This document shows, one piece after another, positions 1 through 58,757 of a stretch of 64,000 nt of DNA (position 1 is its first letter; every line of letters begins with the position of its first letter). The position numbers and the translations under genes were made by a program. The stretch covers positions 26,510-90,509 of IMG/VR virus record IMGVR_UViG_3300032322_001315. One strand, given 5' to 3'. The notes under the pieces were generated by a model. The model saw only the letters and a program-made list of their open reading frames with translations, was not told the DNA's origin and ran no database searches. Origin of the DNA: a virus.

Positions 1-258
1 TGCTGCTTCTATGTTTGTACCAGGAAATGCTCTCTTTGCGTGTTTTACTTTTTGCTCTGCGCCTAATGGATTTTTTGTGCTATCTTGAGAATGAGATAGA
101 ACAATATGATGTGGAGCATTATTCTTATCTGCTATTTCTTTAACTTTATTAACTAGTTTTTCGTGTCCTGAAGTTGGAGGATTCATGCGACCAAACGCAA
201 GCACCACAGGCTTCAAATCGTGGTCTTTTTCTTCAGAAATCTGTAAAAATCTTTTCAT
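1..258 (-). CDS. Nucleotidyltransferase-like protein with capsid-targeting-type N-terminus (3' end outside window)
   Basis: The reading frame begins at an ATG at 258 and runs off the left edge, so only about 86 N-terminal residues are visible. Residues ~21-34 carry the pattern FGRMNPPTSGHEKL, the first nucleotide-binding motif (T-x-GH) of the cytidylyltransferase/NadM-like nucleotidyltransferase superfamily, also seen in T4-like marine phages. The N-terminus MKRFLQISE|E resembles the T4 capsid-targeting sequence (MKTYQEFIAE in IPIII), including an IxE site for the gp21 protease. The start overlaps the stop of the upstream gene as ATGA, so translation is probably coupled. Seen: motif and overlap. 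Inferred: packaging into the head. The substrate is unknown. Confidence 0.7.
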   Translation of the reverse strand, partial: MKRFLQISEEKDHDLKPVVLAFGRMNPPTSGHEKLVNKVKEIADKNNAPHHIVLSHSQDSTKNPLGAEQKVKHAKRAFPGTNIEAA

Positions 259-1430
259 CTAGGTCTACCTAACAAGTTTCTTCTGCTAAATTCGTGTCTA
301 TGTATTAATTTATCTGATTCACCATTGTGATGAAATACATAACCTTCTGGATTTGCTTCTGTTCCGTTATGATGTTGCTCAAATTCTTGATGTTGATTTA
401 ATGCTCTAACTAGAACATTTTTTGCTTGTTGTAAATGATGATGTAATTTGAATAGGTTATTATAATGTTCAGAATGTGCATCTATATGATAAAGATTGTC
501 TTGTAATTCTTGTTTCTTTTTGTTTTTATTTTTATCTGTTTTTAATTTTTCAATATCGTTATTATATTTTTGCTCTATATATTTCGATAATCCTTTATGG
601 TCTGGAGTCGCACCAGTTCTTACTGTTTGATTGATATATGTCTCCAAATGACCACCTGCTCCTGCATGTCTTTGCGTAGCATCATACATTGCATTTCCAT
701 CTTTGTCATGTATTTGTTGTGCGGCATCTAAATGTTGTTTGAACTCTTTTTTGTCTTTATTTGATAGAGTTACTTTTGATGCATCAACTCTTGGGTCTAT
801 TTGAAATACATCTTTATGCTGTTTGAAATTTTCATGGTCGACACCATGATGAGCATTTAGATTTGTTGGATCAGTACCATGATAAGTTAGATGTGTAACT
901 AATCCAATTTGTGAATTTCTTATTTTACCAGCATTCTCTCCTTTTGCTGTGTAACGTAGACCTGAAGGATTTGGATGAAATGAAACTCCTTTATCGTGGT
1001 CATCTAAATCGTCTTTTGTATACATCAAGTCGCCTTGATATACACCTTTCTTAGGAGCAACTTTAGGTAAATGCTTCAATGCTGATTTTAATTTTTCTGC
1101 AAGACCAGGAGCATGACCATGATTAACATCAATATCTGCTTCGGTATAATTTATTTTTGGTTTTTTGTTAAATGCAGATTTACTAGCAACAAAGAATTTA
1201 CCAGTTACTGGATGATGACCATATACTATCGCAGGAGAACCATCATACTTTGTTGTTAATTGAGATGAATGATTTCCAGATTCAATATGGTCATGTGCTG
1301 CTTGCAATGCAGATATGGCGTGTTCAGCACCTTTATGACCTGACTGTAGAGGTCTATCTTCTAGATGCGTGAGATGAGTTATTTGTTTTGCTTCCTGTTC
1401 TTCACGCAGGAATTTTTTAAATCCAAACAT
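255..1430 (-). CDS. Ligase-fold nucleotidyltransferase-like protein (DUF6267-like), candidate packaged protein
   Basis: 391 residues. K61-Y-D-G64, followed by SPAIVYG, is a textbook motif I (KxDG) of the DNA/RNA ligase and capping-enzyme superfamily, where the lysine is adenylated. EGYVFH at ~362-367 resembles motif IV (EGxV), and K374 in KLIHRHEF near the C-terminus could be motif V. The central 240-340 region is charged and helical. It is probably the family annotated in marine T4-like phages as DUF6267. The first ten residues (MFGFKKFLRE) match the T4 capsid-targeting pattern with an LRE cleavage site at 8-10. A late promoter lies 40 bp upstream, and the gene is coupled to the downstream nucleotidyltransferase. 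Activity as a ligase is inference; the other catalytic motifs are weak. Confidence 0.7.
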   Translation of the reverse strand: MFGFKKFLREEQEAKQITHLTHLEDRPLQSGHKGAEHAISALQAAHDHIESGNHSSQLTTKYDGSPAIVYGHHPVTGKFFVASKSAFNKKPKINYTEADIDVNHGHAPGLAEKLKSALKHLPKVAPKKGVYQGDLMYTKDDLDDHDKGVSFHPNPSGLRYTAKGENAGKIRNSQIGLVTHLTYHGTDPTNLNAHHGVDHENFKQHKDVFQIDPRVDASKVTLSNKDKKEFKQHLDAAQQIHDKDGNAMYDATQRHAGAGGHLETYINQTVRTGATPDHKGLSKYIEQKYNNDIEKLKTDKNKNKKKQELQDNLYHIDAHSEHYNNLFKLHHHLQQAKNVLVRALNQHQEFEQHHNGTEANPEGYVFHHNGESDKLIHRHEFSRRNLLGRPR

Positions 1431-10124: not shown

Positions 10125-11393
10125 CTATTCAAAAAAATTACTAAGTGTTCCTCTATCAAAATATTGTTCGAAACTTGACACATTACCAAAACACCAGATA
10201 GGTTCGATATAAATCTTGGTCATATATTCGTCAAGTTCATCACCTATATCTTTTGGTCTTTGAACTATACGCATACCAATTTGACCAACAAACTTATCCT
10301 TAAACTTTTCAATTAAATCATCTGATGCATGATATCGTTTGTTCTTTATCTTTGGGTCCATAATGTTTATCATCATACATCCATTTGATGATAATTTACT
10401 CATAATCTTTTCTGCAACTGGAAGATAAAATTTATCTCTCCACTTCTCATATGTATCATACCTTGACCAAGACTGGTCTTCTTCTTTACCCGAACCTGTT
10501 GCGTATTTTTCTGTAGCAAAGTATGGAGGAGATGTAAATGCACAATCGACTTCAGGAATCAAATTCCAATCCATATCTTCTGCTGGTTTTCTCTGTATGA
10601 TGACTGTCTTTCTTGGAGATTCAAATTTGAACAAATCCGTCTTTTCTGTGATGACAAATTTCTCACCACCTTCTAGCAGTTTACTATATTCAATACATTG
10701 CTTCTTATATCGTTCAAATGTCTCTGGATTAGGATCGCAACCATAATACTCTGTTGTATTTGGAGTTGCAAAGAATGCTGCAAGTCTGTCGCCCCAACCA
10801 CACGAGGTATCTAGAATTACATTTGCATTTGTCAATAGATATAAACATTTTGCAACATGAGGCTTAAACTGAGTTGCGACATAAGCACCTAGACGAAATG
10901 CTGCATTGTAACTACTAATACTCAATTCATTATTGTTCATTCTCCAAAGAGGAGATAGTAGTTGTTCTAAATCTATTCCTTTTGTCCATCTGTCATAAGG
11001 AGAATTAAAAGACCAACCACCACAACGATATCTCAAATCACGATGAAAATAATTTGAGCAATCGTTATATGAATGTCCGTTTTGAATTACACCCATACCA
11101 TATTTCTCATATGAATATGTGTAATCATCAAACTTTTCAATGACTTTGTGTTTAACTTCTTCGTGTTTAAAAAAGTAAGATTTCAAATCACTCTTTAAAA
11201 GAGATAGAAAATTATCCTGCATTTCTTTATGCGTTGTAACTTGAAAAGGAAATGCAGGAGTTTTCTCTATAATATATTCTGATAATTCTTTACGAATTTG
11301 TTCTTTAGAATATTTTTGATTTAACTCTTTCCATTGCTCAACATTCAATAGTGGAGGACCACCATTTTTGGTATATTGTGCAAAATTTATCAT
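10125..11393 (-). CDS. DNA methyltransferase (SPPY type)
   Basis: 422 residues. SAM-binding DTSCGWGDR at 195-203 and catalytic TSPPYF with SPPY at 288-291 mark an amino-methyltransferase acting on adenine N6 or cytosine N4. The order (SAM motif before catalytic motif) is gamma-like. A long N-terminal region of about 130 residues includes RCGGWSFNSPYDRWTKG before the catalytic core and may read the target. It shares architecture with the gene at 27744-29333 and is probably a distant paralogue. No restriction endonuclease partner is adjacent, so it is likely an orphan enzyme for self-protection or regulation. Target sequence cannot be read from here. Confidence 0.85.
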   Translation of the reverse strand: MINFAQYTKNGGPPLLNVEQWKELNQKYSKEQIRKELSEYIIEKTPAFPFQVTTHKEMQDNFLSLLKSDLKSYFFKHEEVKHKVIEKFDDYTYSYEKYGMGVIQNGHSYNDCSNYFHRDLRYRCGGWSFNSPYDRWTKGIDLEQLLSPLWRMNNNELSISSYNAAFRLGAYVATQFKPHVAKCLYLLTNANVILDTSCGWGDRLAAFFATPNTTEYYGCDPNPETFERYKKQCIEYSKLLEGGEKFVITEKTDLFKFESPRKTVIIQRKPAEDMDWNLIPEVDCAFTSPPYFATEKYATGSGKEEDQSWSRYDTYEKWRDKFYLPVAEKIMSKLSSNGCMMINIMDPKIKNKRYHASDDLIEKFKDKFVGQIGMRIVQRPKDIGDELDEYMTKIYIEPIWCFGNVSSFEQYFDRGTLSNFFE

Positions 11394-11400
11394 GTCAAAT

Positions 11401-12132
11401 TTATTTCTTCATTCCCATAAATGGATTTTGTTTATTAGTTTTTGGTGCAACGGAGTAGTTACTTTTAGGCATCTTTTTGATTTTTATTTCTGCTTGCACT
11501 TCATAAAATTCTGAACGAGTAGCAACACGGACTTTAAAATCTCCTGAACCTTTCAGTAAAGGTATTGATGCATCTAAACCTAGAGGATTTTTATTTGAGA
11601 TTCTGTAGAAATCGTCTCCTGCTTGCATATAATAAGCAGGTTCGGTCTTTCCTTCTGTATAATGTTCAGTAACCAACTTACCCAAATCACGATTTTCATC
11701 ATTAGCAATATATCGATTAATACCAGGTTGGTCAAAATATGCTTTCATGATTTGAAGTGACACAGCACCAGGTTCTTTTAGTCCACTTTTCGTTGTCGGT
11801 ATCTTTATATCTTTTTTGGGTATACCTGAAAATTTAGAAATATTATCAATAAACTTTTTTGCCTCCGGTGATTTGTTTAAAATATCAACAGCAGCTTCAG
11901 CAGTAGGTGTTTTATATGTTGTTTTCCATTGACCGTTTTCATAATAAACTCTTGGGTTTGAAAGATTGTCAGTATGTGACATTTTAACTTCTACCCAAGT
12001 TTTTATATTTTTATATTCAATTTTAACATCAGAAAATCCTGTACCTACAGAAGGTCTAGATGCGTTTATGCCAGGCAGTTTGTTTATTTCTTTTGCTACA
12101 TCTTGTTCGAATTTATCTGATGCTGCACTCAT
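11401..12132 (-). CDS. PD-(D/E)XK nuclease-like protein, late
   Basis: 243 residues. The early segment GFSDVKIEYKNIKTWVEVKMS contains D35 and E48-V-K50, the D...ExK core of the PD-(D/E)XK nuclease fold, preceded by helical KFEQDVAKEIN (E9 or E15 as motif I). The rest has no recognised domain; it ends in a basic, asparagine-rich tail. It begins under a late promoter candidate (12160-12167), which suggests a role late in infection, for example in DNA processing or as a virion component. I do not recognise the protein beyond the fold. Other possibility: an inactive structural relative. Confidence 0.6.
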   Translation of the reverse strand: MSAASDKFEQDVAKEINKLPGINASRPSVGTGFSDVKIEYKNIKTWVEVKMSHTDNLSNPRVYYENGQWKTTYKTPTAEAAVDILNKSPEAKKFIDNISKFSGIPKKDIKIPTTKSGLKEPGAVSLQIMKAYFDQPGINRYIANDENRDLGKLVTEHYTEGKTEPAYYMQAGDDFYRISNKNPLGLDASIPLLKGSGDFKVRVATRSEFYEVQAEIKIKKMPKSNYSVAPKTNKQNPFMGMKK

Positions 12133-25854: not shown

Positions 25855-26517
25855 TTAGACTTTTTCAGTTGATACCCAATATTCTGATGTGCCTGACCCA
25901 TTCTTAAAATGAGAAATGCCTTTAGCAGAAATTTCTACTTCATATGAATCGGACATAATCTTGTTTAGATTTTCTGTCTTGAACACATATCTAAATCCAT
26001 TTTCTGTTTCACCGATGTCAATCGAATTAACGTGTGCTGAATCATTGGATGCATCAAAAGAAGACAGACGCAACTTACCATCGACACCTTCGACTGCAAT
26101 GTTTGGTGACTGAAGAACTGATGCTGTACGAACAATCCATTCATAATCTTCTTGAGTCAACTTAAATTGAACATCAACAGAAGGTAGAACAATTTGCTTG
26201 TCTGGTGGAGTATAAAGCATCGACTTGTCAGTAACACGATATTTAATCTTGCTACGACCATTCATAAATTTGACAATAACATGACTATCATCAAAATCAA
26301 GTTCAGGTGCATCCTTCTGTAGAGAAAGAACTGATAGAAAATTGTTCAAATCGTAGATACCAAATTCTTTTGGAAAGTCTTCTTCAACTGTAACTTGAGC
26401 AAGTACAGTCTTTGACTGTGACACGGTAGAAAGAACATTTCCTTGCTTAAAATACAATCCAGAATTAATCGCAGAAAAATTCTTTAGAATTGATAGTGTA
26501 TTAGTAGATAACTTCAT
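25855..26517 (-). CDS. 45: Sliding clamp (gp45)
   Basis: 220 residues from the ATG at 26517 (MKLSTNTLSILKNFSAINSG), the T4 gp45 start (MKLSKDTTALLKNFATINSG); the frame extends 10 codons upstream. The length and repetitive strand layout match T4 gp45 (228). DLNNFLSVLSL and a C-terminal conserved strand are present. It is the processivity clamp of gp43 and, in T4, an activator of late transcription with gp55 and gp33. It overlaps the DUF3310 gene by 17 bp. Confidence 0.93.
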   Translation of the reverse strand: MKLSTNTLSILKNFSAINSGLYFKQGNVLSTVSQSKTVLAQVTVEEDFPKEFGIYDLNNFLSVLSLQKDAPELDFDDSHVIVKFMNGRSKIKYRVTDKSMLYTPPDKQIVLPSVDVQFKLTQEDYEWIVRTASVLQSPNIAVEGVDGKLRLSSFDASNDSAHVNSIDIGETENGFRYVFKTENLNKIMSDSYEVEISAKGISHFKNGSGTSEYWVSTEKV

Positions 26518-27743: not shown

Positions 27744-29333
27744 TTACGGTTTGTAAAAGATGAACACCGGTTCATACTTTAACCACATATCTGCACCTTT
27801 TTCATTTTTGACTTTGCAAAAATTCTTTGCTTTAGGTAGACCAGTTTCACTATCTACTCTATTACCTCCAGGCATTTGTGCTAGAGACATTTTCAGTTTG
27901 CCTTTGTATTCCATACCTAATGATTCAAGAATCTTTCTGCTATCTTCTTCAAGAGGAAGCATGTCGCCTCCGAACACAGCATCAGCAATATTCCAAAGAA
28001 GATAACGGTCATGGCGTAACCATTCAACAGCAGTTTCAAGGGTTGGGCGTAAAAATCCTTCACGCCATTCTTCATACTGTCCAAACTTTTTATATGATTG
28101 AGTAGGGTCTTCCGAATATGCTTCTTTTGCGAAGTATGGTGGGGAAGTAAATACGAGGTCGAGTTTGCCTCTAAACTTCTGAAACTCTTCATTGTTTCGG
28201 ATTACCTCCGAACCAAGTTGGAAAATCTTTGTTTCTGTATGTGAATATTCGTCTGCCCACAGACCCCCTTTGTCTACCGTCTGTCTATAAAAGTCAGCGA
28301 TTTCATCGTATTTTGTGCGTCCATCAGAAGTGTTGTGGTCAGTATTAGGATCAGTCCCAATATAAAAGATATGACGGTCATCACGAACAGACATGGCACC
28401 AAGAAGACGACCACTCCACCCCGAAGAAGGATCGTAAATATGAATAGTGGGTTGGTTTTTAATGTGTTCAGTAAATCGTTCATAGAGGTATTTAGCAGTT
28501 AGTGGAGGAAAATTTACAGCATATTGACAAAACGAAACTCTGAATGCCTTTAGACCAACAGGAAAAAGTTTTTGTCCAAACTTAAAAGGACGAATAGCAT
28601 AATATTCTGACTTATTATAGTCAACATTTGTACGACTCTTTTGTGATACGTTAAGTGCTTCAATGTCACTTTTATGAATCGTTAAATATTTTGCATTTCT
28701 TAGTTCTTCACTATATCCGGTATATTCAGCATCTAGTTCTTTTGGTTGCAACCAATAATCATATTCTCCACGTTGTCTAAACTTTTCTTCAAACTCTTTT
28801 ACCCACGTTGCTCCATCTGATACAACGGGAAGTTGGTTGTAGTATGTTTTGTCGTTTGCTTTGGCAACGTGTGAGTAGTGATAAAAAGAATCACGCTTAA
28901 AATGACGACTAGCGTAAGTGATGAATGTTTCAAGTAATTCTTCCTTTGCAAAATAATCATAGATAGACTTACCATCATCTTTCTTTGTGTAATTGATGCG
29001 AGTCTTCATCATAGTAGGAAACCATTGATTGACTGCATTACCAATTACACTAGTATTACGAATAACATCTTTTTCTCCTGTGAGTTCATCTACACACTCA
29101 AACTCATGAACAGGAAAACTTTCCATTTGATTAAATTGGTCAATAATGCCTTGCTTATCAAAACCTACACGAGGAGGAAGATTCTTGTTGTCCCAAAGGT
29201 CAACAATAGTCTTCCTCAAATCAATTACCCATTGACGAAATTCGTCTTTCGTCATCCATAGAATCTCTTCAAATGTCTTATTGACAGAAGATTCTAGTAA
29301 CTCACGATTTCTTTCATAATACCATTGTGTCAT
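27744..29333 (-). CDS. DNA methyltransferase, SPPY type (second)
   Basis: 529 residues. The SAM motif DPSSGWSGR (301-309) and catalytic FTSPPYF with SPPY at 397-400 define an N4C/N6A-type methyltransferase. About 250 N-terminal residues precede the core and include the segment FAKEELLETFITYASRHF. It has the same order as the enzyme at 10125-11393, and both share FTSPPYFAxExY. It stands alone without a nuclease partner. The next gene downstream of the stop is promoter-separated. Upstream it is joined to a 2OG-Fe(II) oxygenase gene by a 4-bp overlap, which suggests that the two act together. Confidence 0.87.
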   Translation of the reverse strand: MTQWYYERNRELLESSVNKTFEEILWMTKDEFRQWVIDLRKTIVDLWDNKNLPPRVGFDKQGIIDQFNQMESFPVHEFECVDELTGEKDVIRNTSVIGNAVNQWFPTMMKTRINYTKKDDGKSIYDYFAKEELLETFITYASRHFKRDSFYHYSHVAKANDKTYYNQLPVVSDGATWVKEFEEKFRQRGEYDYWLQPKELDAEYTGYSEELRNAKYLTIHKSDIEALNVSQKSRTNVDYNKSEYYAIRPFKFGQKLFPVGLKAFRVSFCQYAVNFPPLTAKYLYERFTEHIKNQPTIHIYDPSSGWSGRLLGAMSVRDDRHIFYIGTDPNTDHNTSDGRTKYDEIADFYRQTVDKGGLWADEYSHTETKIFQLGSEVIRNNEEFQKFRGKLDLVFTSPPYFAKEAYSEDPTQSYKKFGQYEEWREGFLRPTLETAVEWLRHDRYLLWNIADAVFGGDMLPLEEDSRKILESLGMEYKGKLKMSLAQMPGGNRVDSETGLPKAKNFCKVKNEKGADMWLKYEPVFIFYKP

Positions 29334-40502: not shown

Positions 40503-41147
40503 TTAAAGTTTTTTAATGAAGTTTTCAAATATGCGTAGACTTACTTCTTCAATTTCTCGTTTAGATGCCTTGCGAATTTCTTCTCTGGCTTGAGTATATT
40601 CTACTTCAGTCCATACGCCATTTACTAACATCCATTCTTTGCCTTCCATTATTCCTTGTACAAAAGCACCAGGAGCAGAAGGATCCGCTACAATATCCGC
40701 CGCTGTGGCCAGATGAAAGTCATCTTGAACTACATTAACACCGTTGACATTTTTAAGAGAACCCATACCTCTAGATGAAACTCCAAGTTGAGCACCACCT
40801 TCAATCAGATTTCTTGCAATGTTGCCCATTGGTGTGTCAAGAATTTTTGCTTTGCCTATCCAAGTTGAACCTTGTTTTGTGAGATTCTTAATCAGAATCG
40901 CAACTCTATCAAGATTAATTGTAGGTGTATCTGGATGTCCCAGTTCACCAAAGGCACGATTTTTGTTGATATATTCTTCTGTATATCTCTTTACTTCTTT
41001 GTCTAATGTTTGCTCTTTGTATAAACGGCCATTCTTGTTTTGTTTTTCGCCAACAAGAAATGGTCCTTCTATGAAAAGAGACTTTTTACCGTTTTCTTCT
41101 TCGGTAATAAAGTTTACTGATTCTGTAACTTCTGTAATTAGTTTCAT
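40503..41147 (-). CDS. 21: Prohead core protease (gp21)
   Basis: 214 residues, near T4 gp21 (212). IEGPFLVGEKQNKNGRLYKEQTLDKEV matches the T4 IEGIFLQAEVVNRNKRLY region. FGELGHPDTPTINLD contains the catalytic His, and GVSSRGMGSL the catalytic Ser-type SSRGxGSL motif of the family. ITE sites near the N-terminus (LITE, FITE) could be self-cleavage sites. It cleaves scaffold, capsid and capsid-targeted proteins at (L/I)xE. It overlaps the gene upstream by 4 bp. Confidence 0.95.
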   Translation of the reverse strand: MKLITEVTESVNFITEEENGKKSLFIEGPFLVGEKQNKNGRLYKEQTLDKEVKRYTEEYINKNRAFGELGHPDTPTINLDRVAILIKNLTKQGSTWIGKAKILDTPMGNIARNLIEGGAQLGVSSRGMGSLKNVNGVNVVQDDFHLATAADIVADPSAPGAFVQGIMEGKEWMLVNGVWTEVEYTQAREEIRKASKREIEEVSLRIFENFIKKL

Positions 41148-47118: not shown

Positions 47119-48798
47119 TCATCTAATCTTGAAGTAATCCGAGTAAACATCATTTGGTCCTGCTTTCTCCCACACATCACCACCTTCTAATATGAAAGGC
47201 AAATCTAAACCATCATCTATAATAGGTGCAGGTATCATTTCATCGTCTATTTGATTTAATTTTTCTAATTGTAATTGCTTTCTTAAATCGTGATTTACTA
47301 AATCTCTAAAATATTTTTGAGTGGATAACCAAGAGAATAGTACCATAGTCATAACTAGGTCATCTGTCTTACCTTCCTCTGCTGACCAAGACGACCCATC
47401 TGAAATAAACGATGACAATTCTGATATAGTATCGAAATCGTTTGTCATCAATTTATTGGATTCAATGAGTGTTTTTAGATTGTAACAACCTATGCGTTTG
47501 ACCATAGGAGACATTTTGACACCCATCTGAACACCTCTGCCAAAACCAGCAGAGATTTGTTGTGCTTTTTTGTTTCCTGTTTGTACCTTTAATAAATTCT
47601 CATACTCTAAATCAGTATGTAGTATTTCTGCTACTTGTGGAGTATTGTTAACTTCAACAAGCACATATGCATCATTGTAATATTTTGCTGTGTTATAAAT
47701 GACTGTAGGATACAATATAGGAGAGATTAAAGAATCTGCATATTTTGCAACTTGTTTATATGGAGTCGCAGATATATCAAATACCGAGAATGCCGAACAA
47801 TCTTGATTCTTTCCTTCTGCAACGTCAACACAAATTGCATAGATGTGGTCTAAAGTAACACTCTCATCGCCTTTGATTGGATGCTCATATATATCGAGAA
47901 TATTATCTCCTGCAATCTTTTTTCTTTCAATAGGATCGTTGTATGAAAGTGCTTGAAGTCTAGATGCCGATATTAATGTGTCAGCAGAGCCTAAGAATTC
48001 AGTTTCAAATTCTTGTGCGAACTGTCTTTCTGAAGTGTTGCGTATTGTTTCTTCTCGCCATTTGTCGTCTCGACCTGGTACCATTGACCAGTGAATTTCA
48101 AAAGTAGCATAATTGTTTTTATTGTTGATTGCATCCATCCACAATTTGTAGAATAGATTTAATCCATTTGGAGTTGAAACAATAATAATCTTTGTCGATT
48201 TACCTGATGATATGACAGGATAGACTGAGTTGAAGAATTCGTGTGCAATACTGTTTGGTACGAAAGCGAATTCATCAAGAAACACAAGATTGAAAGAACC
48301 ACCACGAACGGCCGATGATGATGTTGCAGCTGCTACTATCTTCGAACCATTTTCGAGTTCTATGTTACCTTTGTTCCATGTGATTACACCTTGCTGTAAC
48401 CATTGTGGTAAGTTTTCGTATGCGAGTTGATATTTGCCTAGAATATCTCTTGCTAGTTGTCCTTTGTTAGCAAGAATGGCAACAGATTGAGAATCTGTAA
48501 ATAATGTTGCCCAAAGAATATATGATATTGTTGTAGTAGTTTTACCAACTTGACGAGGACATTTTGTAATGGAAAATCTATTTTCATGATACGTTCTAAT
48601 CATATCACGTTGAAAGTCCCACATCTTAAAAGGTACTAGACCATCATCTACGTTAACAATCTTGATATATTTTTCGGCAAAGTAGATAGGGTCTTTGGAG
48701 CATTTTATGTATTCTTGTATTTGCTCCTGTGTATACTCAACTTGTACTCCTGCTCTTTTTAAAAGAGGATTATCACGATACGATTCTTTGATTGTCAA
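47119..48798 (-). CDS. 17: Terminase large subunit (gp17)
   Basis: 559 residues (T4: 610). ATPase motifs: CPRQVGKTT (80-88, Walker A), LVFLDEF (171-177, Walker B and catalytic E) and STPNG (coupling). The nuclease domain has ICVDVAEGKNQD as its first acidic residue. It packages DNA into proheads through gp20. It ends just before gp18 and begins 2 bp from a CTS-bearing gene. Confidence 0.97.
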   Translation of the reverse strand: MTIKESYRDNPLLKRAGVQVEYTQEQIQEYIKCSKDPIYFAEKYIKIVNVDDGLVPFKMWDFQRDMIRTYHENRFSITKCPRQVGKTTTTISYILWATLFTDSQSVAILANKGQLARDILGKYQLAYENLPQWLQQGVITWNKGNIELENGSKIVAAATSSSAVRGGSFNLVFLDEFAFVPNSIAHEFFNSVYPVISSGKSTKIIIVSTPNGLNLFYKLWMDAINNKNNYATFEIHWSMVPGRDDKWREETIRNTSERQFAQEFETEFLGSADTLISASRLQALSYNDPIERKKIAGDNILDIYEHPIKGDESVTLDHIYAICVDVAEGKNQDCSAFSVFDISATPYKQVAKYADSLISPILYPTVIYNTAKYYNDAYVLVEVNNTPQVAEILHTDLEYENLLKVQTGNKKAQQISAGFGRGVQMGVKMSPMVKRIGCYNLKTLIESNKLMTNDFDTISELSSFISDGSSWSAEEGKTDDLVMTMVLFSWLSTQKYFRDLVNHDLRKQLQLEKLNQIDDEMIPAPIIDDGLDLPFILEGGDVWEKAGPNDVYSDYFKIR

Positions 48799-48800
48799 TT

Positions 48801-49772
48801 TTATTCATGTCCTAAAGTCTGCTTAAATTTACCAATATGTTCATCATCATCTAAATTTACATGACTTTTATCGAGTCCTTTTTTTCCATCTGGTTGAAAC
48901 ATGACTGTTCTTGCTTTGCCTTGATTTAATTGTTTTTGCCTGATAGTCCATCTTCCTTTTCCAGATAGAGCAGGCAATCCATGACCCGTTTCGTCTTCGT
49001 CTCCAATTCTATATGTTCCATATCCGCCACCAACTTGCAAAATTTTAACGTGATGGTCTTTTAGATATGCATGTGCTGGATCTAAACTTGGATGTTTAAC
49101 GACAACAGATTTAGCACGACCAGAAGAAGTTTTTTCTGCTGTATCAGGATCAGGCTGAACCTTGTTCATATGTTCTAATATTCCTGACTTTTCAATCTCT
49201 TTTGCATATTGTGGTCTCAACTCTCTTGCTTTATCTCCAATATGCCAACCTTTTTCTTTAGAATGATGTATTGTTAATTGACCAAATGCAGCAGTTGTTC
49301 CTTCTTTTGTCTCACCTTCGAGCAAATGTCCTGTGACCGTTCCAGCATGAAATATTTTTCTTTTTTTGTTTTCTGCTACGAAATCTGTTCCTGCTGTCGA
49401 ACCTGCACCTGAAATATGTTCAGGCATGATTCCATGTTTCTTTAATCTGTCAACGAAATCTTTTTCGTATTTGTGTCCTTTGTTTTCTGGTTCTGCTCCA
49501 GGTTTTAATAATTTTGTCACAGGAATTTCATGATGTTCGTCTGAACCTTCTACCTCAGCATGAACATGGAGTTTTCCATTAATTCTATCTGTACCATTTA
49601 GTCTGACTTTTGTTCCTGCGGGCAAATCTCCATGTGCAGATGCTAGTTCATGAGTTGCCTCTGTGCTACCTAAAAAAGGTCTAATATATTTGTCAAAATG
49701 TCTTACGCTCTCGGTACCTGTTCCTATAATAGTACCTCGACCTTCAGATAAGAAAAATTTAAATGACCTCAT
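48801..49772 (-). CDS. Capsid-targeted PD-(D/E)XK-like protein
   Basis: 323 residues. The N-terminus MRSFKFFLSE|GRG matches the T4 capsid-targeting sequence (MKTYQEFIAE in IPIII) with an LSE cleavage site at 8-10. Residues 101-166 run YEKDFVDRL, GTDF (D130), GETKEG (E154-T-K156) and AAFGQL (Q165), the order of the PD-(D/E)XK nuclease core. The C-terminal third has a beta-rich VKILQVGGGYGTYRIGDEDETG segment. It lies between gp16 and gp17, which is unusual: T4 has nothing here. Prediction: packaged and injected nuclease or DNA-binding protein. Nuclease activity is inference. Confidence 0.65.
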   Translation of the reverse strand: MRSFKFFLSEGRGTIIGTGTESVRHFDKYIRPFLGSTEATHELASAHGDLPAGTKVRLNGTDRINGKLHVHAEVEGSDEHHEIPVTKLLKPGAEPENKGHKYEKDFVDRLKKHGIMPEHISGAGSTAGTDFVAENKKRKIFHAGTVTGHLLEGETKEGTTAAFGQLTIHHSKEKGWHIGDKARELRPQYAKEIEKSGILEHMNKVQPDPDTAEKTSSGRAKSVVVKHPSLDPAHAYLKDHHVKILQVGGGYGTYRIGDEDETGHGLPALSGKGRWTIRQKQLNQGKARTVMFQPDGKKGLDKSHVNLDDDEHIGKFKQTLGHE

Positions 49773-50185
49773 TCTTGTTTTCCTTTTAATAGTTTTGACA
49801 ACTCAGCAGTTGAACCTACAAAGATGGCCTTGTCTATAGTTGTCTTTGATGTTTCTTTTTGACCTTTCTTCATCTCTCGCATTTGTTTTTGCAAAAGAAT
49901 TAGTTTTTCGTTTGCTTCTGTCACATTTTTAATCATGGTTGCAGCAACTTCAAATGCACGAGGATGTTCTGATTCTCTAGCAATTTCAAGAATATCATCA
50001 ATGGCGTCTTTACCTTTTTCAATGATTTCTTCATAGTTAGTTCTTACTGTTTCATAGTCAGTTTGAAGGTCATCATCTAATTGTGTTTGCTCTTTGGTTT
50101 CGACAACAGCAGGTAAAGTCTCTTCGATGATTTCAACTGGAGCAACATCAAACAATTGCTCCATATTTCTTTCAAATTTAGTCAT
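49769..50185 (-). CDS. 16: Terminase small subunit (gp16)
   Basis: 138 residues (T4: 164). The core YEEIIEKGKDAIDDILEIARESEHPRAFEVAATMIKNVTEANEKLILLQKQM matches the central coiled coil of gp16. FVGSTAELSKLLK closes the C-terminus. It regulates gp17 and forms oligomeric rings. Overlaps the CTS-bearing gene by 4 bp and lies 1 bp from gp15. Confidence 0.9.
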   Translation of the reverse strand: MTKFERNMEQLFDVAPVEIIEETLPAVVETKEQTQLDDDLQTDYETVRTNYEEIIEKGKDAIDDILEIARESEHPRAFEVAATMIKNVTEANEKLILLQKQMREMKKGQKETSKTTIDKAIFVGSTAELSKLLKGKQE

Positions 50186-54694: not shown

Positions 54695-56476
54695 TTAATA
54701 TTTGTTAAGAAATTGACTAGAACACAATCCTTTGCTAAAGAGTACACCTGTATTTAGGGTTATTTTTTGACCTCTGTTTGCACCATAAGGTACAAAATTA
54801 ATATCTCCATTTGGTGATAAAATACCTCCATTGTGTGCACCGGTAGATGTTGTATAAACCAAACTATATGTTGATACCACTCCATCAGCAGATATTTTTT
54901 GTCCTACAGTAGCTTGTGCTGGTATAAAATGTATATCACCATCGGGTGCTAATACACCACCGGCATATGCAGCAGTTGTTGTATAAACCAAACTATATGT
55001 TGATACTACTCCAGCTGCGGATATTTTTTGACCTACTATTGCACTTCTGGGTACAAAATGAATATCACCGTTTGGTGCTAAAACACCACCTTGATATGCT
55101 AATTCGGAAGATATAGTATATACTAGACTATATGTTGATACCAAACCGCCAGCTGAAACTTTTTGACCTCTGTTAGCAGCAGCCGGTATAAAGTGTATAT
55201 CACCATTTAGTGCCAATACTGCACCTAAAAATGCATTAGTTGTAGTATAAACCAAACTATATGTTGATACTACGCCAGCAGGTGAAACTTTTTGTCCTCT
55301 GTTTGCACTAAGGGGAGCAAAATGTGTATCCCCATTGGGAGCGAGAACGCCTCCTTGATATGCTGCTGCTGTTGTATAAACCAAACTATAGGTGGATACT
55401 ACTCCTGAAGCAGATATCCTTTGACCTCTGTTTGCACTATAAGGTACGAAATTTATATCACCATTAGGTGCTAATACGCCACCGGCATATGCATTAGTTG
55501 TCGTATATACAAGACTATATGTAGAAACAGTACCAGCAGATGATATTTTTTGTCCTCTTATAGCAGAAGTTGGTATAAAATGTATATCTCCGTTTGGTGC
55601 TAGGACACCACCCGTATATGCTGCTGCTGCTGTATAAACTAAACTATATGTACTAACAACACCACCAACACCACTAAACAACTGACTACCATTCTTTCCC
55701 TCATTCAAAAAATTTAGAATGTTAGGAAAAGGATTAAAGTTGGATGTTTTAGCATCACCGTTAACTGTTATAGTAAACTTGTTTGTGCTGTTGTCTAAGA
55801 ATGTTGCATTTTGACAGGTCAGCAGAGAGATGTTGGTGATTGCGGTAAGTGGCGCAGTTGGTGGCGTAAAAGTCGAGGTGTAGAGGACAGTACCTTTGAC
55901 GATGCGAAGATTTGATATATATCCGGGGAAATTGTATTGGTTGGCAGCACCACCTCTATCTGTCCATCCAACAAGCAATGCTCTTGACCCAGTGGTTAAA
56001 TTTGAAGGTACATTTGAAACAGTTGCGCTTGATACCCCATTCAACCAAAGTGTTGCATTTGCTCCACTTCTGGTTAGCGCAAAATGATTCCAAGAATTTA
56101 CTGCTACTGTAGTTGTTGTTCTTGCCGACGAAGGTGGGTTTACGCCTGCATTTGGCACAGCAGCAAAGTGAAAGCAGACACGCAAACTAGAATCAACGCC
56201 AATAGAATATTGCGACCAAGTGCTAAACGCAAGACCATCTTTATCAACAATAACTGCCCCATATATATCTGCATTTGTTGGGGTTGCTGTTAAATAGAAG
56301 AAACCTTCAATAGTAAAATCAGAAGTACCCATATTAAGAGCAGCATTATTAGCAACGCTTAAATAGTCGCCAGCAGCATCGAAAAAAACCGAAGAATACC
56401 CACCTTGTTGCGTACTGCGAACAGTTTGTTGAACTTCAGAGATGAATGTTGGAGAAGATATTCTTACGTCTGGCAT
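54695..56476 (-). CDS. LamG-domain protein with seven beta-propeller-like repeats, receptor-binding candidate
   Basis: 593 residues. Residues ~30-230 form a concanavalin/LamG fold (SVFFDAAGDYLSVANNAALNMGTSDFTIEGFFYL). Seven 43-residue repeats follow, each with VSTYSLVYT, GGVLAPNGDIHF and GQKIS, which agrees with a seven-bladed propeller. The extreme N-terminus (SSPTFISEVQQ) and C-terminus (CSSQFLNKY) recur in the next two genes, presumably for docking and tip. It is downstream of the long fibre gene and probably recognises host glycans. Two genes of the same type precede it in tandem. Confidence 0.8.
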   Translation of the reverse strand: MPDVRISSPTFISEVQQTVRSTQQGGYSSVFFDAAGDYLSVANNAALNMGTSDFTIEGFFYLTATPTNADIYGAVIVDKDGLAFSTWSQYSIGVDSSLRVCFHFAAVPNAGVNPPSSARTTTTVAVNSWNHFALTRSGANATLWLNGVSSATVSNVPSNLTTGSRALLVGWTDRGGAANQYNFPGYISNLRIVKGTVLYTSTFTPPTAPLTAITNISLLTCQNATFLDNSTNKFTITVNGDAKTSNFNPFPNILNFLNEGKNGSQLFSGVGGVVSTYSLVYTAAAAYTGGVLAPNGDIHFIPTSAIRGQKISSAGTVSTYSLVYTTTNAYAGGVLAPNGDINFVPYSANRGQRISASGVVSTYSLVYTTAAAYQGGVLAPNGDTHFAPLSANRGQKVSPAGVVSTYSLVYTTTNAFLGAVLALNGDIHFIPAAANRGQKVSAGGLVSTYSLVYTISSELAYQGGVLAPNGDIHFVPRSAIVGQKISAAGVVSTYSLVYTTTAAYAGGVLAPDGDIHFIPAQATVGQKISADGVVSTYSLVYTTSTGAHNGGILSPNGDINFVPYGANRGQKITLNTGVLFSKGLCSSQFLNKY

Positions 56477-58560
56477 AATTAGAACTTATTAAAAAATGGA
56501 GACATACAAACAGATTGATTAAACGGTATTGCTGGGAGAGTTGATATTTTTTGACCTACTGGGGCAGTTTGCATCATAAAATGTATGTCTCCATTTGGTG
56601 CTAGAACACCGCCTCTATATGCTTGAGTTGATGTATAAACCAGACTATATGTTGATACCACTCCTGAAGCAGATATCTTTTGTCCTACAGTAGCAGCCCC
56701 CGGCACAAAATGTATGTCTCCATTTGGTGCTAGAACCCCGCCTCTATATGCAATAGTTGTTGTATATACAAGACTATATGTGCTTACGACACCTGATGGT
56801 GATATTTTTTGTCCTACAGTAGCAGATGCCGGTATAAAATGAATATCACCATTAGGTGCCAGTACTCCGCCAAAATATGCACCAGTTGTTGTATAAACTA
56901 GACTATATGTTGATACTACTCCAGCAGCAGATATCTTTTGTACTACGGGGGCATCTTGAGGCACAAAATGAATATCACCATTTGGTGCCAATACTCCACC
57001 AAAATATGAACCAGCAGTATAAACCAAACTATATGTTGATACCACTCCTGAAGCAGATATCTTTTGTCCTACAGTAGCAGAGGCCGGTATAAAATGAATA
57101 TCACCATTTGGTGCTAAAACACCTCCTAGATATGCACCAGTTGTAGTATAGACCAGACTATATGTAGATACTACACCAGCAGCAGATATCTTTTGACCTA
57201 CTATTGCAGTTTGTGGTACAAAATGTATGTCTCCATTTGGTGCTAGAACCCCGCCTCTATATGCAGTAGTTGCTGTATATACAAGACTATATGTTGAAAC
57301 TACACCAGCAGCAGATATCTTTTGCCCTACAGCAGCAGATGCCGGTATAAAATGAATATCACCATTTGGTGCCAGTACTCCGCCAAAATATGCAGTAGTT
57401 GTTGTATATACAAGACTATATGTACTGACTATTCCGTTATTAAAAGTTTGTCCTGCAGCAACACTTTTATCAATCAAACCTTTCATACCAAAGAACCATG
57501 AATATGCAGTATTTGCAGTATCCATAGAACTATTATCAGCAGTAATAAGATTACCCCAAGCTCTTGTTTGAGTTTCCGTTATCCAGGTTGGGGAAATATT
57601 GTTTATTGGCATAATTATAATTTATTAAAATATGATGAACAACAAGTTCCAATTTCAAAAGGAATCGCTGAATTAGTATGTATTATTTGACCCCTGTTTG
57701 CATTGTGTGGTATAAAATGAATATCACCATTTGGTGCTAAAACGCCGCCAGCATAAGCACTGGTGGTCGTATAAACTAGACTGTATGTTGATACCACTCC
57801 AGAAGCAGATATCTTTTGTCCTCTAATGACAACAAACGGAATAAAATGTATATCACCATTAGGAGATAATACACCACCAACATAAGCACTGGTGGTCGTA
57901 TAAACCAAACTATATGTTGATACCACTCCAGAAGCAGATATCTTTTGTCCTCTGTTTGCAACATATGGTATAAAATGAATATCACCATTAGGAGATAATA
58001 CACCACCAATATATGCACCGGTGGTCGTATAAACCAAACTATATGTTGATACAACACCAGTAGCAGATATTTTTTGTCCTACAGTAGCAGATGCCGGTAT
58101 AAAATGAATATCACCATTAGGAGATAATACACCACCGGCATATGCAGCAGTTGTTGTATAAACCAAACTATATGTTGATACAACACCAGTAGCAGATATT
58201 TTTTGTCCTACAGTAGCAGATGCCGGTATAAAATGAATATCACCATTAGGAGATAATACACCACCAATATAAGCTCCGGTGGCCGTATAAACCAAACTAT
58301 ATGTTGATACAACACCAGTAGCAGATATCTTTTGTCCTCTGTTTGCACTATATGGTATAAAGTGAATATCACCATTAGGAGATAATACACCACCGTTATA
58401 AGCACTGGTGGTCGTATAAACCAAACTATATGTTGATACAACACCAGTAGCAGATATCTTTTGTCCTCTGTTTGCACTATATGGTATAAAGTGAATATCA
58501 CCATTAGGTGCCAGTACTCCGCCAAAATATGCACCAGTTGTTGTATAAACTAGACTATAT
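54750..58560 (-). repeat. Coding tandem repeats, 129-bp unit in three genes
   Basis: Twenty-one in-frame units of about 129 bp (7 + 7 + 7) encode the 43-residue blades; several are nearly identical at DNA level both within and between genes. Variation is focused on the same positions in each unit (after SLVYT, and after HFxP). Confidence 0.9.
56479..57612 (-). CDS. Seven-repeat beta-propeller-like tail protein, paralogue
   Basis: 377 residues. A short N-terminal domain of ~60 residues (ISPTWITETQTRAWGNLITADNSSMD) precedes seven 43-residue repeats (one is 42) with VSTYSLVYT, GGVLAPNGDIHF and GQKIS motifs. The C-terminus reads SPFFNKF, the same pattern as the neighbours. It lacks the LamG domain. 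Separated by 2 bp from each neighbour. A seven-bladed propeller is inferred from exactly seven repeats; receptor or glycan binding is a second inference. Confidence 0.78.
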   Translation of the reverse strand: MPINNISPTWITETQTRAWGNLITADNSSMDTANTAYSWFFGMKGLIDKSVAAGQTFNNGIVSTYSLVYTTTTAYFGGVLAPNGDIHFIPASAAVGQKISAAGVVSTYSLVYTATTAYRGGVLAPNGDIHFVPQTAIVGQKISAAGVVSTYSLVYTTTGAYLGGVLAPNGDIHFIPASATVGQKISASGVVSTYSLVYTAGSYFGGVLAPNGDIHFVPQDAPVVQKISAAGVVSTYSLVYTTTGAYFGGVLAPNGDIHFIPASATVGQKISPSGVVSTYSLVYTTTIAYRGGVLAPNGDIHFVPGAATVGQKISASGVVSTYSLVYTSTQAYRGGVLAPNGDIHFMMQTAPVGQKISTLPAIPFNQSVCMSPFFNKF

Positions 58561-58757
58561 GTTGATACTACCGTGCTGTCATTGACTGAACTGTATGTTG
58601 TTCCACTTTCTAAACTGCGTTGAAGCACTCTCTGTAATTTATACCATGCAGTCAAGTCTGTGCTTATAGAACTATTATCTGATATGGGTAATGTACCATA
58701 AACTGATTGAGTAACATCACTCTGCCATGATGGTGATATAATCCACGTATTTGCCAT
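57615..58757 (-). CDS. Seven-repeat beta-propeller-like tail protein, paralogue
   Basis: 380 residues. N-terminal ~65 residues (IISPSWQSDVTQSVYGTLPISDNSS) resemble those of the gene at 56479-57612. Seven repeats of 43 residues with very similar DNA (several blades nearly identical) follow. The C-terminal CCSSYFNKL matches the tail peptide of the other two. It is the first of the three in transcription order and follows the long fibre by 3 bp. The near-identical blades suggest recent expansion or recombination. Confidence 0.78.
   Translation of the reverse strand: MANTWIISPSWQSDVTQSVYGTLPISDNSSISTDLTAWYKLQRVLQRSLESGTTYSSVNDSTVVSTYSLVYTTTGAYFGGVLAPNGDIHFIPYSANRGQKISATGVVSTYSLVYTTTSAYNGGVLSPNGDIHFIPYSANRGQKISATGVVSTYSLVYTATGAYIGGVLSPNGDIHFIPASATVGQKISATGVVSTYSLVYTTTAAYAGGVLSPNGDIHFIPASATVGQKISATGVVSTYSLVYTTTGAYIGGVLSPNGDIHFIPYVANRGQKISASGVVSTYSLVYTTTSAYVGGVLSPNGDIHFIPFVVIRGQKISASGVVSTYSLVYTTTSAYAGGVLAPNGDIHFIPHNANRGQIIHTNSAIPFEIGTCCSSYFNKL

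Follow-up and report, generated by a model that had tools for sequence, protein, structure and literature searches.

We describe a gene whose product almost certainly has a PD-(D/E)XK nuclease fold, is very probably packaged in the phage head, and belongs to a conserved cassette with a ligase-like gene of the DUF6267 family (LIG) and/or a cytidylyltransferase-like gene (CYT). It was found in a 64,000-nt stretch of DNA from a T4-like phage (the window; positions 26,510 to 90,509 of IMG/VR record IMGVR_UViG_3300032322_001315), where it lies between the terminase genes gp16 and gp17. Membership of the cassette is our main addition to a first-pass annotation of this DNA. Our best explanation, held with moderate confidence, is that virions carry a nucleic-acid-processing kit and that the product is the nuclease of this kit, injected with the DNA. 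Neither capsid targeting nor the PD-(D/E)XK fold is new, but their occurrence together, native and conserved, in a cargo cassette appears to be a new arrangement; a search of the open-licence literature found nothing on a native capsid-targeted nuclease or on DUF6267.

Table 1. Features of the nuclease-like gene, its flanks and its cassette partners (window coordinates unless a locus is named).
Feature	Position	Strand	Remarks
Predicted capsid-targeted PD-(D/E)XK nuclease-like protein	48801..49772	-	323 aa
Capsid targeting sequence MRSFKFFLSE, residues 1-10	49743..49772	-	prohead-protease cut predicted after E10
SH3/Tudor-like beta-barrel domain, residues 13-95	49488..49736	-	VIA-align rows, Z about 6
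PD-(D/E)XK core, residues 97-206, with E103, D130, E154, K156, Q165	49155..49484	-
C-terminal domain, residues 207-323	48804..49154	-	conserved; within HhaI match; motif resembles PSSM2_192
Inserted segment, compared with the empty gp16/gp17 junction in L190-L194	about 48798..49777	-
gp16, terminase small subunit, upstream flank	49769..50185	-	phrog_445, E 5e-40
gp17, terminase large subunit, downstream flank	47119..48798	-	secure assignment
LIG, cassette partner, DUF6267, RNA-ligase-like, leader MFGFKKFLRE	255..1430	-	Pfam PF19782, E 1.6e-96
CYT, cassette partner, cytidylyl/NMN-adenylyltransferase-like domain and P-loop, leader MKRFLQISEE	1..258	-	first 86 codons in window; remainder is G000:C1:25016-26509
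gp21-type prohead protease, expected to remove the leader	40503..41147	-	phrog_207, E 1.1e-77
Loci with another gene adjoining DUF6267	L173:4923-6008, L174:4917-5975, L175:5079-5996, L176:4700-6001, L177:7770-9530

A leader in the register of T4 internal proteins

The open reading frame has 323 codons and begins with ATG; its start overlaps the gp16 stop by 4 bases and its end lies 2 bases from gp17, confirming the first-pass placement of a nuclease-like gene between the two. Family searches with the protein (Pfam, PHROGs, NCBIfam, PADLOC) gave no match, sequence searches of the PDB gave no usable match, and tblastn against GenBank phages found no close homologue, cyanophage P-SSM2 being reached by profile and fold only. 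From IMG/VR, 9 homologues were found with the single sequence and 116 with a profile, of which 80 were retained; the conservation counts below come from an alignment of 49 homologues.

The protein begins MRSFKFFLSE|GRG, with F4, F7, L8 and E10. In T4, amber-suppressor genetics of the 10-residue propeptide of IPIII assigned targeting mainly to residues 4 and 7, and processing to residues 8 and 10 (reviewed in PMC9026906). The cleavage register that had been read as that of IPIII is exact, with all four residues at the positions assigned in IPIII, and T4 IPI, IPII and Alt likewise have a 10-residue N-terminal leader that gp21 cuts after Glu. The gp21-type site, (I/L)-x-E|(G/A), is present as LSE|G, and residues 1-9 are disordered in the structural model (pLDDT < 50), as expected for a removable propeptide. 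F4 and F7 in an N-terminal leader within the 10-20 residues expected, the LSE|G site and the phage's own gp21 are sequence traits of T4-type capsid-targeted cargo.

These features persist in homologues whose leaders are not fixed in sequence and have lengths of 10-27 residues, one of them being truncated. At the cut site, P1 is Glu in 48 of 49 homologues, P3 is Leu or Ile in 41 and P1' is Gly or Ala in 42, with P2 free. All 13 homologues with a 10-residue leader have F4, an aromatic or aliphatic residue at position 7, L or I at position 8, and E10. A strict leader pattern is matched by 26 of 51 distinct genes of the family and by 28 of 654 other genes at the same loci (Fisher p about 1e-18, which overstates the significance since the sequences are related; the contrast is large). 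The same pattern is found in 27 of 57 LIG genes and in only 11 of 60 CYT genes. The first-pass annotation had counted this gene as the third that is capsid-targeted; under the strict pattern the window holds two, LIG and the nuclease-like gene, with further ones located shortly beyond it. There is good support for capsid targeting in the IPIII register, and these sequence features make packaging of the protein in the head highly probable.

Against this, the nuclease homologues and LIG proteins of cultured cyanophages are leaderless, CYT alone bearing a leader, so that packaging of the nuclease, like capsid addressing of all three proteins together, looks specific to the clade that we sampled. 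Two leaderless homologues of 237-244 aa were also seen among our loci (L074:881-1594 and L270:988-1719(-)); that of L270 immediately follows gp41, and in L074 a leader-bearing copy is present in the same genome.

Just outside the window, a gene for a 665-aa protein (L091:8607-10604(-), equivalent to G000:C1:22606-24603) has many EE(V/I)E(Q/E)(L/I/M)DE(A/G/V/K) repeats. These look like serial prohead-protease sites, and the protein is perhaps a head polyprotein that is cut into peptides.

Fold and active site

An AlphaFold2 model built from the 49-sequence alignment has a mean pLDDT of 88.9 and a pTM of 0.76. Its core has the order alpha-beta-beta-beta (helix 98-112; strands 131-134, 150-156 and 164-171), with pLDDT mostly > 80 and weak loops. 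The best solved match in VIA-align is HhaI endonuclease (6uke; Z 10.6, rmsd 3.9), the next row having a Z of 6.7; 180 residues align, between model residues 97 and 319, with 16% identity, 6uke being the one chain of the HhaI/HinP1I/MspI type that this comparison sampled. Foldseek of the model against the PDB gave no significant match; the fold assignment comes from VIA-align. Against the predicted structure of the P-SSM2 protein Q58MG2 (BFVD), Foldseek gave an E-value of 1.7e-12, and the sequence profile independently finds the same protein, PSSM2_192 (T4-GC188), with an E-value of 7e-5.

Residues E103, D130, E154, K156 and Q165 are invariant in all 49 homologues. The order D...ExK...Q, previously noted as consistent with PD-(D/E)XK, is found as D130...E154-T-K156...Q165; the predicted fold is related to this class, and loss of the D, E or K, which would have counted against the assignment, was not seen in any of the 49. 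Counterparts in PSSM2_192 (YES ... APDAMFMYGG ... LEVKLN ... YGQGT) keep recognisable D, ExK and GQ elements, and the same catalytic elements can be recognised in the L270 and L074 homologues. Given the modelled fold, we are nearly certain that this is a PD-(D/E)XK protein, and conservation of the active site within that fold makes it likely that the protein is an active nuclease.

Homologues in P-SSM2, P-TIM40, S-8S53 and S-H25 share both the PD-(D/E)XK and the C-terminal architecture; at 225-287 aa, they lack the leader and the N-terminal SH3-like domain, and they are annotated as hypothetical. Relative to HhaI, the protein adds the leader and the SH3-like domain, and its gene has no adjacent cognate methyltransferase. 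The added domain (residues 13-95) resembles SH3/Tudor-like barrels, a common small fold that is weak evidence of function.

A second PD-(D/E)XK-like protein, leaderless, is encoded at 11401-12132(-), directly after gp41; it has the pattern SD-x12-EVK, with D35, E48 and K50 invariant in 16 homologues. The next gene, at 10125-11393(-), has a TSPPY methyltransferase motif, and the two are possibly a phage restriction-modification-like pair. An hhalign comparison of the two nuclease-like proteins of the window did not show homology (probability 6.5%). PSSM2_192 is weakly matched by both profiles, so that a distant link between them is possible.

The cassette and the gp16/gp17 junction

We compared 54 distinct loci of the nuclease-like gene: LIG is no more than two genes away at 52 of them and CYT no more than three at 43, and one or both partners are present at 53. 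At the exception (L083), the gene adjoins one whose 337-aa product weakly matches an RNA-ligase profile (E 0.005). At L008 and L009, the nuclease-like protein and CYT are fused, and a HAD gene with a match to a polynucleotide kinase family of PHROGs (E 3e-6) is also present at some loci. The order nuclease-LIG-CYT recurs in the cultured cyanophages P-TIM40, S-8S53 and S-H25, where the three genes are directly adjacent, and the P-SSM2 homologue is also near CYT. In the genome studied here, CYT directly follows LIG and lies mostly outside the window, while the nuclease-like gene stands alone at the gp16/gp17 junction. LIG, CYT, the HAD protein and a 132-aa neighbour bear leaders similar to that of the nuclease-like protein. 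The first-pass annotation had suggested that a packaged nuclease might attack host DNA or competitor phages, or help genome entry; the conserved LIG, CYT and HAD neighbours, of which it took no account, are at least equally suggestive of nucleic-acid processing carried out jointly.

DUF6267 (phrog_455) is a family of unknown function, found by tblastn in 470 phage records, mostly from cyanophages, that models as an RNA-ligase-like covalent nucleotidyltransferase. The LIG model (pLDDT 89.0, pTM 0.86) has nucleic-acid ligases in all of its best 50 VIA-align rows, led by Naegleria RNA ligase (Z 8.4), TbREL1 (7.3) and T4 Rnl2 (6.9); Foldseek against the PDB gave no significant match, and DUF6267 has no significant sequence match to RNA ligases. 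The Lys and Asp of a KxDG motif, an EGxV motif and a downstream Lys (K374) are invariant in LIG, a resemblance to RNA ligases such as the Naegleria ligase, TbREL1 and T4 Rnl1 and Rnl2, ligase activity being a prediction. A Z-score near 8 is moderate by itself; taken with the uniform rows and the motifs, it points to a probable nucleotidyltransferase fold of the ligase-like kind. In CYT, a CTP_transf_like domain (E 1e-4) precedes a P-loop region. CYT is the only cassette member with published detection in virions, in other phages: a cytidylyltransferase was detected by virion proteomics in S-SM1 (T4-GC190; PMC3037559) and S-CREM2 (ORF154; PMC10665884), and an NMNAT-like protein in S-SCSM1, with S-CBWM1 also mentioned (PMC9602691), the authors warning of possible co-purification. 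The S-CREM2 protein begins MKNFSSFLTEA, and T4-GC190 of P-SSM2 begins MKSFSQFLTE.

In cultured phages, the gene adjoining DUF6267 is mostly for a different protein, several of which have a D...(S/E)xK pattern (Table 1). The slot beside DUF6267 may thus be filled by non-orthologous nuclease-like proteins.

The position between gp16 and gp17 had been called unusual. This holds for the nuclease-like gene, which was not found at this junction in any relative examined and is never within two genes of gp16 or gp17 in 54 distinct relatives. It does not hold for the junction, a published insertion hot-spot in cyanophages (PMC3037559) that in relatives is empty or occupied by other capsid-tagged genes. 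Both gp16 and gp17 could be located in 73 relatives, and in 54 of these no gene separates them. The junction is empty in L190-L194 and occupied in the window; in L190, whose gp16 is 99% identical to that of the window in protein and 96% in DNA, gp16 and gp17 overlap at GTGA, and gp17 starts with GTG rather than the TTG of the window. In L195-L207, L209, L211 and L227, the junction holds a leader-bearing HAD gene (e.g. MKSFRIFMTEE), to which 12 of these loci add a leader-bearing 132-aa gene (MKFKEFIKES). The gp16/gp17 junction is a docking place for cargo genes. We rejected a role in packaging deduced from the location within the terminase pair, since the gene is absent from that position in near relatives and the site also receives other cargo genes. 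We also considered whether the gene had taken its leader from a resident HAD gene; at the DNA level, the leader is no closer to HAD leaders than to others.

Proposed role and alternative explanations

We propose that the protein is produced at the same time as the other head proteins and that its 10-residue leader would direct it into the prohead core, as T4 genetics suggests, where the gp21 protease would cleave it after E10. The mature 313-aa form would remain with the packaged DNA and be injected alongside it. Nucleic acid would then be hydrolysed by the PD-(D/E)XK site in the HhaI-like fold, the substrate probably being bound by the SH3-like and C-terminal domains. Judging from the cassette, the protein would act at the start of infection with the co-packaged DUF6267 protein, the CYT enzyme and sometimes the HAD phosphatase, the kit serving to process nucleic-acid ends or for counter-defence. 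We favour this reading because the nuclease-like gene is regularly accompanied by genes for ligase-like, nucleotidyltransferase-like and HAD phosphatase proteins, and we consider it reasonably probable that the protein works jointly with these partners. A broader version is tentative: that a large group of aquatic T4-like phages pre-load their heads with the nuclease, DUF6267, CYT with its P-loop kinase and the HAD phosphatase, each enzyme with its own capsid address, and inject them so that tRNA or DNA is repaired or remodelled ahead of any phage gene expression.

Precedent for such delivery comes from T4. Ip1-3, whose leaders are of this kind, are injected and inhibit type IV restriction enzymes (PMC12373910), and the T4 internal proteins with known targets are restriction-enzyme inhibitors; Alt is an ADP-ribosyltransferase. 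The protein described here differs from these in having a nuclease fold and in the cargo, ligase-like and nucleotidyltransferase-like, with which it would travel. A signal of this type also packages a nuclease in engineered T4 fusions of the capsid targeting sequence to staphylococcal nuclease or EcoRI (PMC9026906, PMC3012670), which are artificial, whereas the arrangement here is a natural one that evolution has conserved. When T4 particles contain packaged staphylococcal nuclease, adding Ca2+ leads to destruction of the phage DNA (PMC9026906). Given this danger, a packaged nuclease would need a silencing or protection mechanism, raising the question of how a DNA-filled head tolerates it; possible answers are modification of the phage DNA by a methyltransferase, a metal-free head, or a strict substrate such as RNA or special ends. 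If our proposal is correct, a conserved capsid-addressed nuclease with ligase-like and nucleotidyltransferase-like cargo extends the delivery route to multi-enzyme nucleic-acid processing, gives DUF6267 a testable role, and supplies a partner context for the cytidylyltransferase seen in cyanophage virions.

The main rival, which we consider unlikely, is a stand-alone attack enzyme: once injected, the nuclease would cut host or competitor DNA site-specifically, like a monomeric restriction enzyme, with the phage DNA protected by a methyltransferase and the cassette neighbours doing separate jobs. The HhaI-like fold is consistent with this, as are the precedent of monomeric type II enzymes such as HinP1I, which nick one strand at a time (PMC4081073), and the TSPPY-type methyltransferase motifs elsewhere in the genome (e.g. 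10125-11393 and 27744-29333). However, no methyltransferase was recognised adjoining the gene in the loci seen: there is none beside it in the window, and no gene that regularly adjoins it across the 54 loci was recognised as one. Moreover, the adjacency to LIG or CYT and the CYT fusion suggest a joint function.

It is improbable that the leader is non-functional and that the protein is an intracellular nuclease acting before lysis in replication, recombination or packaging. The leaderless cultured homologues such as PSSM2_192, near the replication genes gp41, uvsX and mazG, would fit such a role, but the leader features are kept despite divergence, at positions that matter in T4, and similar leaders are borne by LIG, CYT, the HAD protein and the 132-aa neighbour. 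Still more doubtful is a nuclease fold without catalysis, serving as a DNA-binding internal head protein that aids DNA packing or ejection: T4 internal proteins are indeed abundant and touch packaged DNA (PMC3012670), but binding alone would not need the E/D/ExK/Q set that is invariant in the 49 homologues and present in remote relatives. Lastly, invasion of the gp16/gp17 junction by a freestanding homing (selfish) endonuclease would account for the clean insertion beside a gp16 whose close relative has an empty site, and homing-type endonucleases are known to flank cyanophage cassettes (PMC3037559), but this is very improbable for a gene that has a capsid leader, sits in a stable cassette away from gp16/gp17 in 54 distinct relatives, and shares its junction with non-nuclease capsid-tagged genes of relatives.

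Elsewhere in the window, three consecutive genes at 54695-58757(-) contain many tandem copies of a unit like GVVSTYSLVYTTTxAYxGGVLAPNGDIHFIP, and these repeats probably mark a repeat-domain tail or adhesin array.
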